Source: Chryseobacterium luteum (lineage in GTDB: Bacteria > Bacteroidota > Bacteroidia > Flavobacteriales > Weeksellaceae). From it: 64,000 nt of DNA. This document shows, one piece after another, positions 51,630 through 56,847 of the stretch (within the stretch, counting starts at the first letter, position 1; each line of letters opens with the position of its first letter). The stretch spans positions 124,001 through 188,000 of the forward strand of contig NZ_JPRO01000014.1 of the NCBI RefSeq assembly GCF_000737785.1. The letters run 5' to 3'. Under the pieces are notes generated by a model. That model was given only the letters and a program-made list of their open reading frames with translations. It did no database searches and was not told where the DNA came from. Position numbers and translations under genes: made by a program.

Positions 51630-51631
51630 AA

Positions 51632-51662
51632 TTTGAATATTAATTTAAAATTACTATTTTTG
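51632..51662 (+). promoter_or_regulatory. Promoter of the small transcription unit before purM
   Basis: TTTG at 51632-51635, a 19-nt spacer and TATTTTTG at 51655-51662. This is a full consensus promoter, placed right behind the FMN reductase stop. Confidence 0.7.
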
Positions 51663-51675
51663 CAAAAAGAAAAAG

Positions 51676-51750
51676 ATGAAAATTCAGACCACTTTTAAAG
51701 AATGTTTCTCAGAGAAAGGGAAAACTGTGGGCTCTGAAATTCTGAGATAA
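51676..51750 (+). CDS. 24-residue small ORF in a self-contained transcription unit
   Basis: ATG at 51676 opens 24 codons, beginning MKIQTTFKECF and ending SEILR. An A-rich stretch of the kind used in flavobacterial leaders precedes it. The unit runs from a consensus promoter to a strong terminator, about 130 nt in all. It could encode a small protein, be a leader peptide that controls purM, or be incidental in a small RNA. No relative is recognised. Confidence 0.4.
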   Translation: MKIQTTFKECFSEKGKTVGSEILR

Positions 51751-51757
51751 AATACCG

Positions 51758-51795
51758 GCCGATAATCTACCAAGATTGTCGGCTTTTTTATTTTC
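51758..51795 (+). terminator. Terminator between the small unit and purM
   Basis: GCCGATAATCT and AGATTGTCGGC form an 11-bp stem (one T.G) around the tetraloop ACCA, followed by TTTTTTATTTT. It lies 136 nt before purM, so it either ends the small unit or acts as an attenuator. Confidence 0.85.
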
Positions 51796-51930
51796 TAAAA
51801 TCGATATAAAAAGTAATTATAGAAATAAAATGTATCAATATACCAATGTACCAGTTTTTTGGTTTTCCAAACAAGATGATTGTTGCATTGTTAAACTGAC
51901 TACATTGCTACATTAATAAAATTATTAAGC

Positions 51931-52923
51931 ATGAGCAACACTTACAAATCAGCAGGCGTAGACAAAGAAGAAGGATACAAAACGGTTGACAAGATCAAAA
52001 AAGCAGTAGGCGAAACCCACAACTCAAATGTATTGAACCATTTGGGGAGTTTTGGAGCTTTCTATGAGATCGGAGGATATAAAAATCCTGTGCTGGTTTC
52101 AGGAACAGACGGAGTGGGAACCAAGCTGAAAGTAGCTTTGGATACCAAACAGTACGACTCTATCGGTATCGACTGTTTCGCCATGTGTGCCAATGATATC
52201 CTTTGCCACGGAGCAAAACCGTTATTCTTCCTGGATTATCTGGCTTGCGGAAAACTTGATTCGGAAATCGCTGCGGAGATTGTTCTTGGAATGGTAAAAG
52301 CATGTAAAGACAACAACTGTGCACTGATCGGTGGAGAAACTGCTGAAATGCCGGGAATGTACCAGCCTGGAGATTATGATGTTGCAGGATTCTGTGTAGG
52401 AATCGTAGAAAAGGACCAGATCATTGACGGTTCCGGTATCAAGGCAGGAAATAAAATTATTGCCCTTCCAAGCTCAGGATTCCACTCCAACGGATTCTCA
52501 TTGGTAAGAAAAGTATTTCCGGACTTCCATGAAGAATTTGAAGGAAAACCTTTATATGAAACCCTTTTAGTGCCTACAAGACTTTACTACAAAGACATTC
52601 ATAAAGTGTTGGAAGAAGTAAAAGTTTGTGGTATTGCCCATATTACAGGTGGTGGCCTTTACGAGAATGTTCCTAGGATCATTCCTGAAGGATTATGTGC
52701 TTCCATAGATGCTGCGAAGATTAAAATTCCTGGCGTTATGGTTGAACTGGAAAAAAGAGGCGGTGTACCCCGTGAAGAAATGTTCGGAACTTTCAATATG
52801 GGAGTAGGTATGGTCATTGTTACAGATGCAGACCATGCTGAAAAAGTATTGCATCTTCTGGATGATGCTTACGAAATCGGAGAAATTACAGAAGGAAGCG
52901 AAAAAATAGATTTAAAATTTTAG
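51931..52923 (+). CDS. purM: Phosphoribosylformylglycinamidine cyclo-ligase (AIR synthetase)
   Basis: A 330-residue enzyme that closes the imidazole ring in purine synthesis (FGAM + ATP to AIR). The PurM signatures are SGTDGVGTKLKVA (about 50-62), DCFAMCANDILCHGA, LIGGETAEMPGMYQPGDYD and IALPSSGFHSNGFSLVRK. Length is slightly short of the E. coli enzyme but complete. It begins the rightward purine cluster. The gap to purN holds two palindromic repeats. Confidence 0.97.
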   Translation: MSNTYKSAGVDKEEGYKTVDKIKKAVGETHNSNVLNHLGSFGAFYEIGGYKNPVLVSGTDGVGTKLKVALDTKQYDSIGIDCFAMCANDILCHGAKPLFFLDYLACGKLDSEIAAEIVLGMVKACKDNNCALIGGETAEMPGMYQPGDYDVAGFCVGIVEKDQIIDGSGIKAGNKIIALPSSGFHSNGFSLVRKVFPDFHEEFEGKPLYETLLVPTRLYYKDIHKVLEEVKVCGIAHITGGGLYENVPRIIPEGLCASIDAAKIKIPGVMVELEKRGGVPREEMFGTFNMGVGMVIVTDADHAEKVLHLLDDAYEIGEITEGSEKIDLKF

Positions 52924-52925
52924 GA

Positions 52926-53017
52926 GCTTAATCCCGCTTTCCGCTATATCTTTTTCGTTACGGCCTCCGCTTCGCTCCGGCCTCCACGAAAAAGGATGCC
53001 GCTGCAATCGGGGCTAG
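52926..53017. repeat. Dispersed palindromic element between purM and purN
   Basis: ATCCCGCTTTCCGCTATATC and GGATGCCGCTGCAATCGGGGCTA flank TTTTTCGT...ACGAAAAA arms and a GC-rich CGGCCTCCGC core. From memory, this layout (ATCCCGCT...AATCGGGGCTA) is a common intergenic repeat in flavobacteria. It is followed directly by a second palindrome at 53032-53064. Confidence 0.7.
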
Positions 53018-53031
53018 TTAATAACAGTCAA

Positions 53032-53076: not shown

Positions 53077-53646
53077 ATGAAAAATATAGTCATTTTAGTT
53101 TCTGGTTCAGGAACCAATCTTCAGAGAATTATTGATACCATTGATAATGGAGAAATCCAAAACGCAAAAGTATCTTTAGTCGTTGCAGACAGAGAATGTT
53201 ACGGATTGGAAAGAGCCAAAAATCACAATATAGAAAACGTTCTCATTCCAAGAGGAAAGAATTTCAGCAGTGAATTGGGGAGAGTAATTCCAAAAGATAC
53301 AGATCTGATCGTGTTGGCAGGATTCCTATCCATCCTGAAACCTGAATTCTGTGAGAACTGGGACGGTAAAATCATCAATATCCACCCGGCACTGCTTCCG
53401 AAATTCGGAGGAAAAGGGATGTGGGGCATGCATGTTCACAATGCCGTTATTGAAGCCGGAGAAAAAGAAAGCGGGGCAACCGTACATTTTGTAACTCCGG
53501 GAATTGATGAAGGAGAAGCCATTCTTCAAAAATCATTTGAAGTAACAGCAGATGATACCCCGGAAACAATAGCAGAGAAAGTACACCATATTGAATATGA
53601 AATATTTCCAAAAGCAATCAACAAGGTCTTGGGAAACAATTCGTAG
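53077..53646 (+). CDS. purN: Phosphoribosylglycinamide formyltransferase
   Basis: A 189-residue enzyme transferring the formyl group of 10-formyl-THF to GAR. It starts MKNIVILVSGSGTNLQ (ATG at 53077 chosen; the open frame extends 27 codons upstream into the repeats, which is not coding). Active-site segments are IINIHPALLPKFGG (Asn/His) and TVHFVTPGIDEG (Asp). Length matches the family. It is separated from purM only by repeats, so cotranscription is possible. Confidence 0.95.
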   Translation: MKNIVILVSGSGTNLQRIIDTIDNGEIQNAKVSLVVADRECYGLERAKNHNIENVLIPRGKNFSSELGRVIPKDTDLIVLAGFLSILKPEFCENWDGKIINIHPALLPKFGGKGMWGMHVHNAVIEAGEKESGATVHFVTPGIDEGEAILQKSFEVTADDTPETIAEKVHHIEYEIFPKAINKVLGNNS

Positions 53647-54003: not shown

Positions 54004-55521
54004 ATGAGTAAAAAGAGAGTTTTAATCAGTGTTTCTGACAAAAGCGGATTGATCGAGTTCGCTCAGTTCCTGGAAGCCCGGAATTATGAGTTGATTTCTA
54101 CAGGAGGAACGTTCAAACATTTGAAAGACGCTGGCTTAAATCCGATTCAGATCGATGAGGTGACCAATTTCCCTGAAATGCTGGACGGAAGAGTGAAAAC
54201 CCTTCACCCGAAAGTGCACGGAGGTCTTTTAGCAGTTCGTTCCAATGAAGAACACATGAGAACCGTTCAGGAACACGGAATTGATCTGATCGACATGGTG
54301 ATCGTAAACCTTTACCCTTTCTTTGAAAATGTAAACAAAGACATTTCCTTACACGAAAAGGTAGAATTCATCGACATCGGAGGTCCTTCAATGCTTCGTT
54401 CTGCCGCTAAGAACTTTGATTCTGTAACAGTAATTACTGACGTTGAAGATTATTCGACTGTAAAAATTGAAATGGAACAGAACGGTGACACGTACATTGA
54501 AACACGTAAAAAGCTTGCAGGAAAAGTATTCAACCTTACTTCAGCTTACGACGGTGCTATTTCAAGAATGCTTTTAGATGAAGAATATCCTGCGTATCTT
54601 AATGCTTCCTATAAAAAGGCAGCTGACTTAAGATATGGCGAAAACCCTCACCAAACTGCTGCTTACTACGTTTCTACGTTTGAGAACGGTGCGATGAAAG
54701 ATTTCGAACAGCTTGGCGGTAAAGAGCTTTCCTTCAATAACCTTCGTGATATGGACCTTTGCTGGAAAGTAGTTACGGAATTCAAAGAAGAAATGGCATG
54801 TTGCGCCGTGAAGCATTCTACCCCTTGTGGTGTTGCGATCGGAACTTCAGCACTCGATACTTACCAGAAAACTTTCGAATGTGATCCTGTTTCTATTTTT
54901 GGCGGAATTGTTGCTATGAACTACAAGATCGATGCGGCAACAGCTGAAGAACTGAACAAGACGTTCCTTGAGATCGTAATGGCTCCGGAATTTGATGAAG
55001 AAGCTCTTGAAGTTTTAAGAAAAAAGAAAAACCTGAGAATTATAAAGATCGTTAACCCTGTTTCCGACAAGCAGACATGGGTGAAGATTGACGGCGGTAT
55101 CCTGGTTCAGGACAATGACACTCATTTCTCTGATGATATCAAGGTTGTAACTGAGGTGCAGCCTTCGGAAGAGCAGAAGAAAGCCCTTCTTTTCTCCCAG
55201 AGAGTCGTGAAGTATGTAAAATCAAATGCAATTGTTGTTTCCAACGGTATTCAGGCCTTCGGAATCGGTGGCGGACAGGTGAACAGAATCTGGGCTACCC
55301 AACAGGCCATCGAAAGAGCAAAAGAAAAATTCACAGGAGATCTTGTTTTGGCTTCTGACGCATTCTTCCCTTTCCGTGATGTGGTAGATTTCTGTGCAGC
55401 AGAAGGTATCAAAGCCATCATTCAGCCGGGAGGAAGTGTAAAAGATCAGGACAGTATTGAAGCTGCCAATGAGCACGGTATCCCGATGATGTTTACCGGA
55501 GTTAGACATTTTTTACATTAA
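54004..55521 (+). CDS. purH: Bifunctional AICAR formyltransferase / IMP cyclohydrolase
   Basis: A 505-residue enzyme performing the last two steps to IMP. The N-terminal IMP cyclohydrolase domain (about 1-195) starts [13 protein letters not shown] and has [15 protein letters not shown]. The C-terminal transformylase domain has [22 protein letters not shown] (catalytic Lys/His), and ends [28 protein letters not shown]. Length is normal. Confidence 0.98.
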
Positions 55522-55608: not shown

Positions 55609-56847
55609 ATGAGAATATTAATCATAGGTGAAGGCGGTAGAGAATCTGCTTTAGCGGCAAAACTTCAGAATGACCCGAGAATTTCTAAAATGTTTTTTGC
55701 TAACGGTAATGCTACCACCGATGTAATAGGGAAAAATGTTCATTTATCAGAGATCAAAGAACTGAGAGATTTCGCCATTAAAGAAAAGGTGGATCTTACG
55801 ATCGTAGGTCCGGAAGCTCCTCTTGTAGCAGGGCTGAAGGATGAATTCAAAAAACACGATCTTAAAGTTTTCGGTCCCAACCAAAAAGTAGCAAGCCTGG
55901 AAGGAAGTAAGGCTTTCTCTAAGAAATTTATGCAGACCTATGATATCAAGACAGCCAAGGCTGTGGTATTTGATTCATATAATGATGCTAAAGAATATGT
56001 TCAGACACAGCAGTATCCTTTGGTGGTGAAGGCAAGCGGTCTGGCAGGCGGAAAAGGTGTTGTGATTTGCGACAACCTTGAAGAAGCTGAAGCTACGATC
56101 CACGACTTCATGATCAGAAGAATTTATGGAGATGCAGGCATCCGTCTGGTTATTGAAGAATATTTAGAAGGTTTTGAAGCTTCCATCATTGCATTCTCAA
56201 ACGGTGAAAAACTTTTCCCTTGTGTGGCTGCAAAAGATTACAAAAAAGCAGGAAACGGAGATACGGGACCTAATACCGGTGGTATGGGATCTGTTGCACC
56301 AAGCCCTGAATTTACCCAGGAGCACTATGCTGATTTTGAGAAAAACATCTTACAGCCTACCATCAACGGTCTTAAAGGAGAAGGATTCGGCTTTAAAGGA
56401 ATCATTTTCTTCGGATTGATGGTGACTAAAAACGGAGCTTATCTTCTTGAATACAATATGAGATTCGGAGATCCTGAAACTCAGGTATTGATGGCATTAA
56501 TGGAAAACAACCTTCTTGATGTTATCCAGGATTGTATGGAAGGAAAAGACATTCAGCTTAAGTTTAAAGACGAAAAAGCAGTTTGCCTTGTTATGTGTTC
56601 CGGAGGTTACCCGAGGAATATAGAAACAGGCTACGAAATTGTAGGCGAAGACAAACTGAAACATTCTAAACTTCTTTATGCAGGAGCAGTGAAAAAAGGC
56701 GATAAAGTAGTTTCCAACGGCGGACGGGTTCTGAACGTGGTGGCTACCGGAGCGACTTACGATGATGCCCGCAAAAAAGTGTACGAAGATGCAGCCCACA
56801 TTCATTTCGATTACGGATTCTACAGAGAAGACATCGGAAAGTTTTAA
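55609..56847 (+). CDS. purD: Phosphoribosylamine-glycine ligase (GAR synthetase)
   Basis: A 412-residue ATP-grasp enzyme joining phosphoribosylamine and glycine. The N-terminal Rossmann part starts MRILIIGEGGRESALAAKL. The ATP-grasp core has GLAGGKGVVICDN, EEYLEGFEASIIAFSNG and YNMRFGDPETQVLM. The length is within the family's range, slightly shorter than the common 420-430 residues. Its own promoter and terminator frame it as a single-gene unit. Confidence 0.97.
   Translation: MRILIIGEGGRESALAAKLQNDPRISKMFFANGNATTDVIGKNVHLSEIKELRDFAIKEKVDLTIVGPEAPLVAGLKDEFKKHDLKVFGPNQKVASLEGSKAFSKKFMQTYDIKTAKAVVFDSYNDAKEYVQTQQYPLVVKASGLAGGKGVVICDNLEEAEATIHDFMIRRIYGDAGIRLVIEEYLEGFEASIIAFSNGEKLFPCVAAKDYKKAGNGDTGPNTGGMGSVAPSPEFTQEHYADFEKNILQPTINGLKGEGFGFKGIIFFGLMVTKNGAYLLEYNMRFGDPETQVLMALMENNLLDVIQDCMEGKDIQLKFKDEKAVCLVMCSGGYPRNIETGYEIVGEDKLKHSKLLYAGAVKKGDKVVSNGGRVLNVVATGATYDDARKKVYEDAAHIHFDYGFYREDIGKF

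Follow-up and report, generated by a model that had tools for sequence, protein, structure and literature searches.

We conclude that the short promoter-ORF-terminator unit upstream of purM in Chryseobacterium luteum is a conserved cis-acting attenuator leader of a purine operon, an assignment that we regard as well supported. Judging from its sequence, we favor the more specific reading, at a probability of about 0.62, that the unit is a ribosome-coupled transcription attenuator forming the 5' leader of the purM-purN-purH-purD-guaA run. The order of promoter, open frame, terminator, and purM is common to many genera, as seen in the sequence and by comparison of genomes. A mechanism based on ribosome position at this leader is probable, and the sensing of purine nucleotides via polymerase pausing is our guess by analogy.

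Anatomy of the leader and its RNA

The leader lies in a window of 64,000 nt (the whole stretch of contig NZ_JPRO01000014.1 that was analyzed), between the genes for an FMN reductase and purM (Table 1). The initial annotation of this interval had described a TTTG-N19-TATTTTTG promoter, an A-rich leader, a 24-codon ORF, and a terminator, all of which are borne out. The promoter was matched to what we take to be the Bacteroidota consensus; of 88 distinct promoter regions from relatives, 65 carry a TTG/TTTG-like element 17 to 21 nt 5' of the -7 box. The terminator had been called an 11-bp GC-rich hairpin with a T run. Both terminator and T run are present, but the stem comprises 12 pairs (5 G-C) around a loop of 4 and is not GC-rich overall. 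Its first pair lies 6 nt after the stop codon of the ORF. A complete unit of ~130 nt had also been proposed: the parts do follow one another in order, and the RNA would be ~120 nt long if counted from a start near position 51667, but the unit is probably the 5' leader of a longer operon rather than free-standing.

TABLE 1 Features of the purM leader and neighboring genes, in window coordinates
Feature	Position	Strand	Basis
FMN reductase, NADPH-dependent	stop codon ends 51629		Pfam FMN_red
Promoter, Bacteroidota type: TTTG (51632-51635), 19-nt spacer, TATTTTTG (51655-51662)	51632..51662	+	sequence
A-rich 5' UTR	51667..51675	+	sequence; start site inferred from box spacing
Leader ORF, 24 codons, ATG 51676, peptide MKIQTTFKECFSEKGKTVGSEILR, stop TAA 51748-51750	51676..51750	+	
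Predicted ORF-closing hairpin: 51683-51692 with 51727-51730 and 51733-51738	51683..51738	+	fold
Predicted inner hairpin of ORF	51705-51710 with 51718-51723	+	fold
Linker between hairpin and terminator, 8/18 bases A, includes last codons and stop	51739..51756	+	sequence
Intrinsic terminator: 12-pair stem (51757-51784), six T (51784-51789)	51757..51789	+	sequence
purM, AIR synthetase, first gene of presumed operon	51931..52923	+	Pfam AIRS, AIRS_C
purN	53077..53646	+	Pfam Formyl_trans_N
purH	54004..55521	+	Pfam AICARFT_IMPCHas, MGS
purD	55609..56847	+	Pfam GARS_N, GARS_A, GARS_C
guaA	57002..58531	+	Pfam GATase, GMP_synt_C

A gap of 141 nt (51790-51930) separates the terminator from purM. Positions 51820-51925, like the same gap in some relatives, hold AT-rich repeat-like sequence with variants of ATTGTTACATTGTTAAACTGATACATTG (by eye), perhaps an intergenic repeat. 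Going by gene order, guaA is possibly the last purine gene of the presumed purM-purN-purH-purD-guaA operon. An Rfam Flavo-1 RNA (67 bits) is found in the purM-purN interval on the - strand, antisense, at window positions 52926-53019.

The RNA of this sequence, terminator included, folds better than its shuffles (z -3.25), and the ORF by itself (L001) folds no better than shuffles (z -0.21). Across 36 diverged representatives, the 5' third of the ORF shares a mean of 12.3 expected pairs with its 3' third, versus 5.7 in shuffles, the ORF ends pair above shuffles (P <=0.1) in 22, and the ORF folding energy has a mean z of -1.46, with 22 of the 36 below -1. Consensus folding of four sets with RNAalifold gave the long ORF hairpin in one; the other three, one of which is a mixed set, gave mostly the terminator and a short inner hairpin. 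Covariation was sought in 21 Epilithonimonas-type leaders, where both partners had changed in 3 of 27 pairs, a number that shuffles also reach. The covariation is weak, and we therefore grade a hairpin formed by the ORF ends, as modeled, as likely, short of proven. The predicted hairpin at 51683..51738 is a possible candidate for an RNA polymerase pause hairpin.

Conservation of the leader and its reading frame

The initial annotation had proposed conservation in relatives as a check, and the element is indeed retained. A DNA search with positions 51630-51800 as the query matched 98 of 98 genomes in the genus sample, once each, with the match spanning most of the query. For the wider family, 171 of the 246 sampled genomes returned a hit, though many of the hits were short stretches of promoter or terminator. 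purM lies 3' of the element, on the same strand, in 64 of 64 loci fetched by element sequence. In three loci (L051, L059, and L062), purM follows the leader though the reductase was not found in the fetched stretch; as read from the sequences, the leader stays with purM while the gene 5' of it changes.

Because sequence similarity alone was to be avoided as a criterion, the family was also searched with the purM protein, which matched in 140 of 148 genomes and 30 of 33 genus labels, and the upstream regions were then fetched (295 regions, with some genomes present more than once). For 17 of the 30 labels, sampled genomes show the promoter-ORF-terminator anatomy upstream of purM. It was not seen in those of the other 13; with one to several genomes read per genus, a genus scored here as leaderless may carry it elsewhere. 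In three of these 13 labels, purF lies directly 5' of purM (by label: L102; L113, L132, L135, L301, and L302; L120), and the same holds for all 15 loci (L255-L269) that belong to other families of the order. Some further leaderless regions have a promoter box 19 to 53 nt before purM. In the leader-bearing locus L134, the end of purF is found further upstream, beyond the reductase, an arrangement that fits the leader having arisen when purM was separated from purF.

The terminator pattern is present in 252 of the 295 regions. This is a lower bound, since the 43 regions lacking the pattern, which also include the 15 loci of other families, contain at least two leaders with a variant terminator (L086, and L277 by eye). 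Of the 252, 250 have an ORF with its start 10 to 27 nt past the promoter box and its end anywhere from 14 nt ahead of the GCCG core of the stem to 8 nt within it. Its stop lies 5 to 7 nt before the core in 229 of these 250, its length is 23 to 32 codons (24 codons in 189), and its stop codon is TAA in 239, TAG in 7, and TGA in 4. Among 37 diverged representatives, 36 have the ORF, and L133 is without the frame; dinucleotide shuffles of the 36 yielded such an ORF in ~9% of trials (3.2 expected versus 36 seen). The ORF of L206 has a frameshift. The encoded peptides are nearly all different between genera (MKIQTTFKECFSEKGKTVGSEILR here, and MKPQRLHSPKEIFQNFGSGIFAEIKY, MNKNLQHFGTLILQEIGKLKYAAK, and MKIIKQFKEKHQSSRTIGKDKSVCPLNLR in others), with 125 distinct peptides among 140 distinct leaders. 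The frame is kept and the peptide changes; we therefore infer selection for being translated more than for the peptide.

The GCCGA...TCGGC core of the terminator is kept in sequence as well as in pairing, across genera with little likeness in the ORF. A genome-wide terminator family was considered and rejected, as the pattern GCCGA-N8-22-TCGGCTTTTT occurs only twice in the whole genome, the leader copy included. When named collections were searched with the terminator pattern alone, 115 of 116 stretches held a leader or a remnant of one (36 of the 116 were judged by ORF and purM). An intact ORF is found in 114 of the 115, each of them with a TAA stop, and among the 109 leader stretches in which purM was also present, 108 have it no more than 240 nt away. 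At L198, more than 600 nt separate leader and purM, an interval that apparently holds an inserted gene. The remaining stretch, from Marinomonas ushuaiensis (L178, 2903-2933), a species outside the family, has the terminator pattern with neither purM nor a leader ORF; the pattern there comes after what is apparently the end of an ordinary gene.

A stop codon close to a terminator is not in itself unusual in this genome: among 190 ordinary gene ends in 1.5 Mb, the stop lies -10 to +9 nt from the terminator stem in 35, with a median distance of 21 nt. What is special is that this closeness is kept for a short frame before a biosynthetic operon.

Mechanism and alternative explanations

The case for action in cis comes from the placement of promoters. 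Of the 177 distinct terminator-purM gaps, only 3 contain a complete TTG-type promoter, and 33 others contain a lone -7-like box with no full promoter; 12 of the gaps are 45 nt or shorter, the shortest being 24 nt. In six loci checked, from two genera (L099, L117, L118, L124, L126, and L128), the gene 5' of the leader is divergent, and the closest promoter located for purM is thus that of the leader. Where that promoter is the sole one for purM, RNA polymerase must cross the terminator to make purM. In Chryseobacterium, the reductase is on the same strand and just 5' of the promoter, and read-through from it is therefore possible. With a loosened pattern, 44 of these 177 gaps were found to contain a block resembling GTTTGAAATAAATCT. 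It was rejected as an operator: the exact pattern occurs once in this genome, elsewhere, after an unrelated gene.

We propose the following mechanism. RNA polymerase would start ~9 nt before the ATG, and a ribosome would trail it along the 24 codons and melt the internal hairpin of the ORF on its way. A ribosome that is close behind when it reaches the stop codon would cover the first arm of the terminator stem, which would mask the terminator and allow purM to be transcribed. Were the ribosome late, absent, or already gone, the terminator would form and an RNA of ~120 nt would be released; this short terminated RNA may accumulate as a by-product. The ORF hairpin and the A-rich linker may pace the polymerase. 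The most likely signal, a guess from the pyrBI analogy, would be low purine nucleotides, which would slow RNA polymerase and raise purM. The ribosome-coupled reading is favored because 6 nt separate the stop codon from the stem and because of an effect of stop proximity in E. coli described in sections of PMC4824070: shortening the distance from the stop codon to a downstream terminator from 28 to 5 nt lowered the efficiency of the terminator from ~90% to <10%, and the effect was lost when translation was uncoupled.

The linker evidence is weaker. The 14 nt before the stem average 58% A and 16% U in the 140 distinct purM leaders, versus 44% A and 31% U at control terminators of the same genome. 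Because 31% of the 355 controls are as A-rich as the purM leaders, the A-richness is suggestive only. This ordinary composition would suit a constitutive damper, in which the promoter and a leaky terminator set a low level of purM and the ORF keeps the RNA translated and stable. We consider such a damper unlikely, though it is the strongest of the alternatives, as it does not account for the retention of frame, length, and stop-to-stem spacing alongside a changing peptide. The initial annotation had itself left three options open: a small RNA, a small protein, or an attenuator that tunes purM. A small RNA acting independently elsewhere, with purM served by another promoter, would account for the promoter and terminator and for the better-than-shuffled fold of the terminated RNA. 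That option has lost ground and now appears quite improbable, given that purM adjoins the element in every locus fetched by element sequence, that a full promoter rarely precedes purM, and that the RNA body differs between genera, hence no seed is kept.

A gene for a functional small protein is very improbable for its part. The ORF is kept, and the synonymous-rate check suggested by the initial annotation came out partly in its favor: for Chryseobacterium-type leaders (60 distinct of 102 ORFs), pN/pS is lowest in frame, at 0.55 versus 0.79 and 0.74 in the other frames. However, peptides of different genera share little, Pfam gave no match for the peptide encoded at 51676..51750, and the RNA hairpin may account for part of the constraint. 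It is highly improbable that the ORF is a control-codon leader peptide of the his/trp type that senses aminoacyl-tRNA; a leader ORF with a terminator is present, and glutamine makes up 6.9% of residues after the first, but the longest run of a single residue in the 125 peptides is 2, and a second structure excluding the terminator was not seen by eye. Least probable of all is a metabolite riboswitch ending in the terminator. Its position in cis and the terminator before a biosynthetic operon would fit; no Rfam family reaches its gathering score at the leader, however, no conserved core is seen beyond the terminator, and the ORF occupies the space of an aptamer. The attenuator option, by comparison, is strengthened by the linkage to purM, the scarcity of other complete promoters before purM, and a stop codon within ribosome reach of the terminator.

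The pyrB leader and other known systems

A scan of 1.504 Mb of the genome, with 355 terminators, for the combination of promoter, short ORF, and terminator returned six units of this shape, some of which are probably due to chance. Two of the six stand directly before a gene identified as biosynthetic, namely, purM and pyrB. The pyrB leader (L314:3950-4060; contig C14, ~251950-252060) has a 23-codon ORF, MNKRVFISLDLPGESALYDIYYY, and a U-rich tract; its terminator lies 25 nt before pyrB, behind which carA is found (Pfam). Among 113 matching genomes, the 30 best-scoring pyrB loci (L317-L346, from four genus labels) were read: all 30 have a terminator ahead of pyrB, and 29 have a short ORF of 21 to 36 codons. 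There, pyrB lies 21 to 41 nt past the terminator, and U makes up 50 to 86% of the 14 nt preceding the stem. The E. coli pyrBI attenuator is built in the same way, from a short ORF, a U-rich tract, and a terminator. The pyrB and purM leaders of this family share the order of promoter, short ORF, and terminator, but their sequences are unrelated, and the region before the stem is 50 to 86% U in the former versus 16% U and 58% A in the latter.

In E. coli pyrBI and pyrE, the terminator lies near the end of a leader ORF, the distance between ribosome and polymerase decides termination, and the operons serve nucleotide synthesis. The purM leader is similar in its leader ORF, in the position of its terminator near the ORF end, and in standing before a nucleotide-synthesis operon. 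It differs in that the operon is for purines, the linker is A-rich and U-poor, and the phylum is another. We consider it possible, tentatively and by analogy, that the purM leader is a purine counterpart of pyrBI, in which low ATP or GTP would slow polymerase in the A-rich linker past the ORF hairpin, the ribosome would catch up at the stop codon and mask the terminator, and purMNHD-guaA would be made. If so, the same genomes would regulate pyrimidine synthesis through a U-tract and purine synthesis through an A-tract in one type of device, and sensing of NTPs could be tested directly on the purM and pyrB leaders that are paired in a single genome. A clade of Weeksellaceae would then control purine synthesis by a leader ORF and terminator, instead of relying solely on a repressor or riboswitch, and its sensor would lie within sequence that annotation overlooks.

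The pyrBI system is also discussed in sections of PMC4824070. Another comparison is the mgtM leader ORF of the Salmonella mgtCBR operon, for which parts of PMC3641672 report an unconserved peptide, retained adenines and stem-loops, and a response to ATP. The lack of peptide conservation resembles the purM leader, but at mgtM high ATP raises expression, via alternative stem-loops, and the operon is concerned with virulence and Mg (PMC3641672, same parts). In Flavobacterium psychrophilum, from a related family, leader-peptide attenuators with short ORFs have been proposed in parts of PMC9723704; these are short-ORF leaders as well, but of amino acid operons.

The purM leader fits no Rfam family. 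The best match in a permissive Rfam search, the trpB motif RF04312, also has a hairpin followed by a terminator; it was rejected at 27.3 bits (gathering score, 59), with the match falling mostly on a generic terminator. 6S RNA (RF01685, 6S-Flavo) was likewise rejected, its sole reported match in the genome lying elsewhere, at 45.3 bits (gathering score, 85). Our search of open-access titles and main texts found no printed description of a purM leader peptide or of purM attenuation in Bacteroidetes, and purM has 0 occurrences in the accessible main-text sections of PMC9723704, PMC8632094, PMC7366714, PMC2965389, and PMC13209784.

Elsewhere in the genome, no similar leader was seen by eye upstream of purC or guaB, and purF lies behind purC in one cluster. 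A small gene separates purC and purF there (L412/L415; contig C13, ~85117-87742); its product presumably resembles the four-helix 23S rRNA intervening-sequence protein. The window also contains a fluoride riboswitch (Rfam RF01734, 48.1 bits) at positions 1778-1845 on the - strand.
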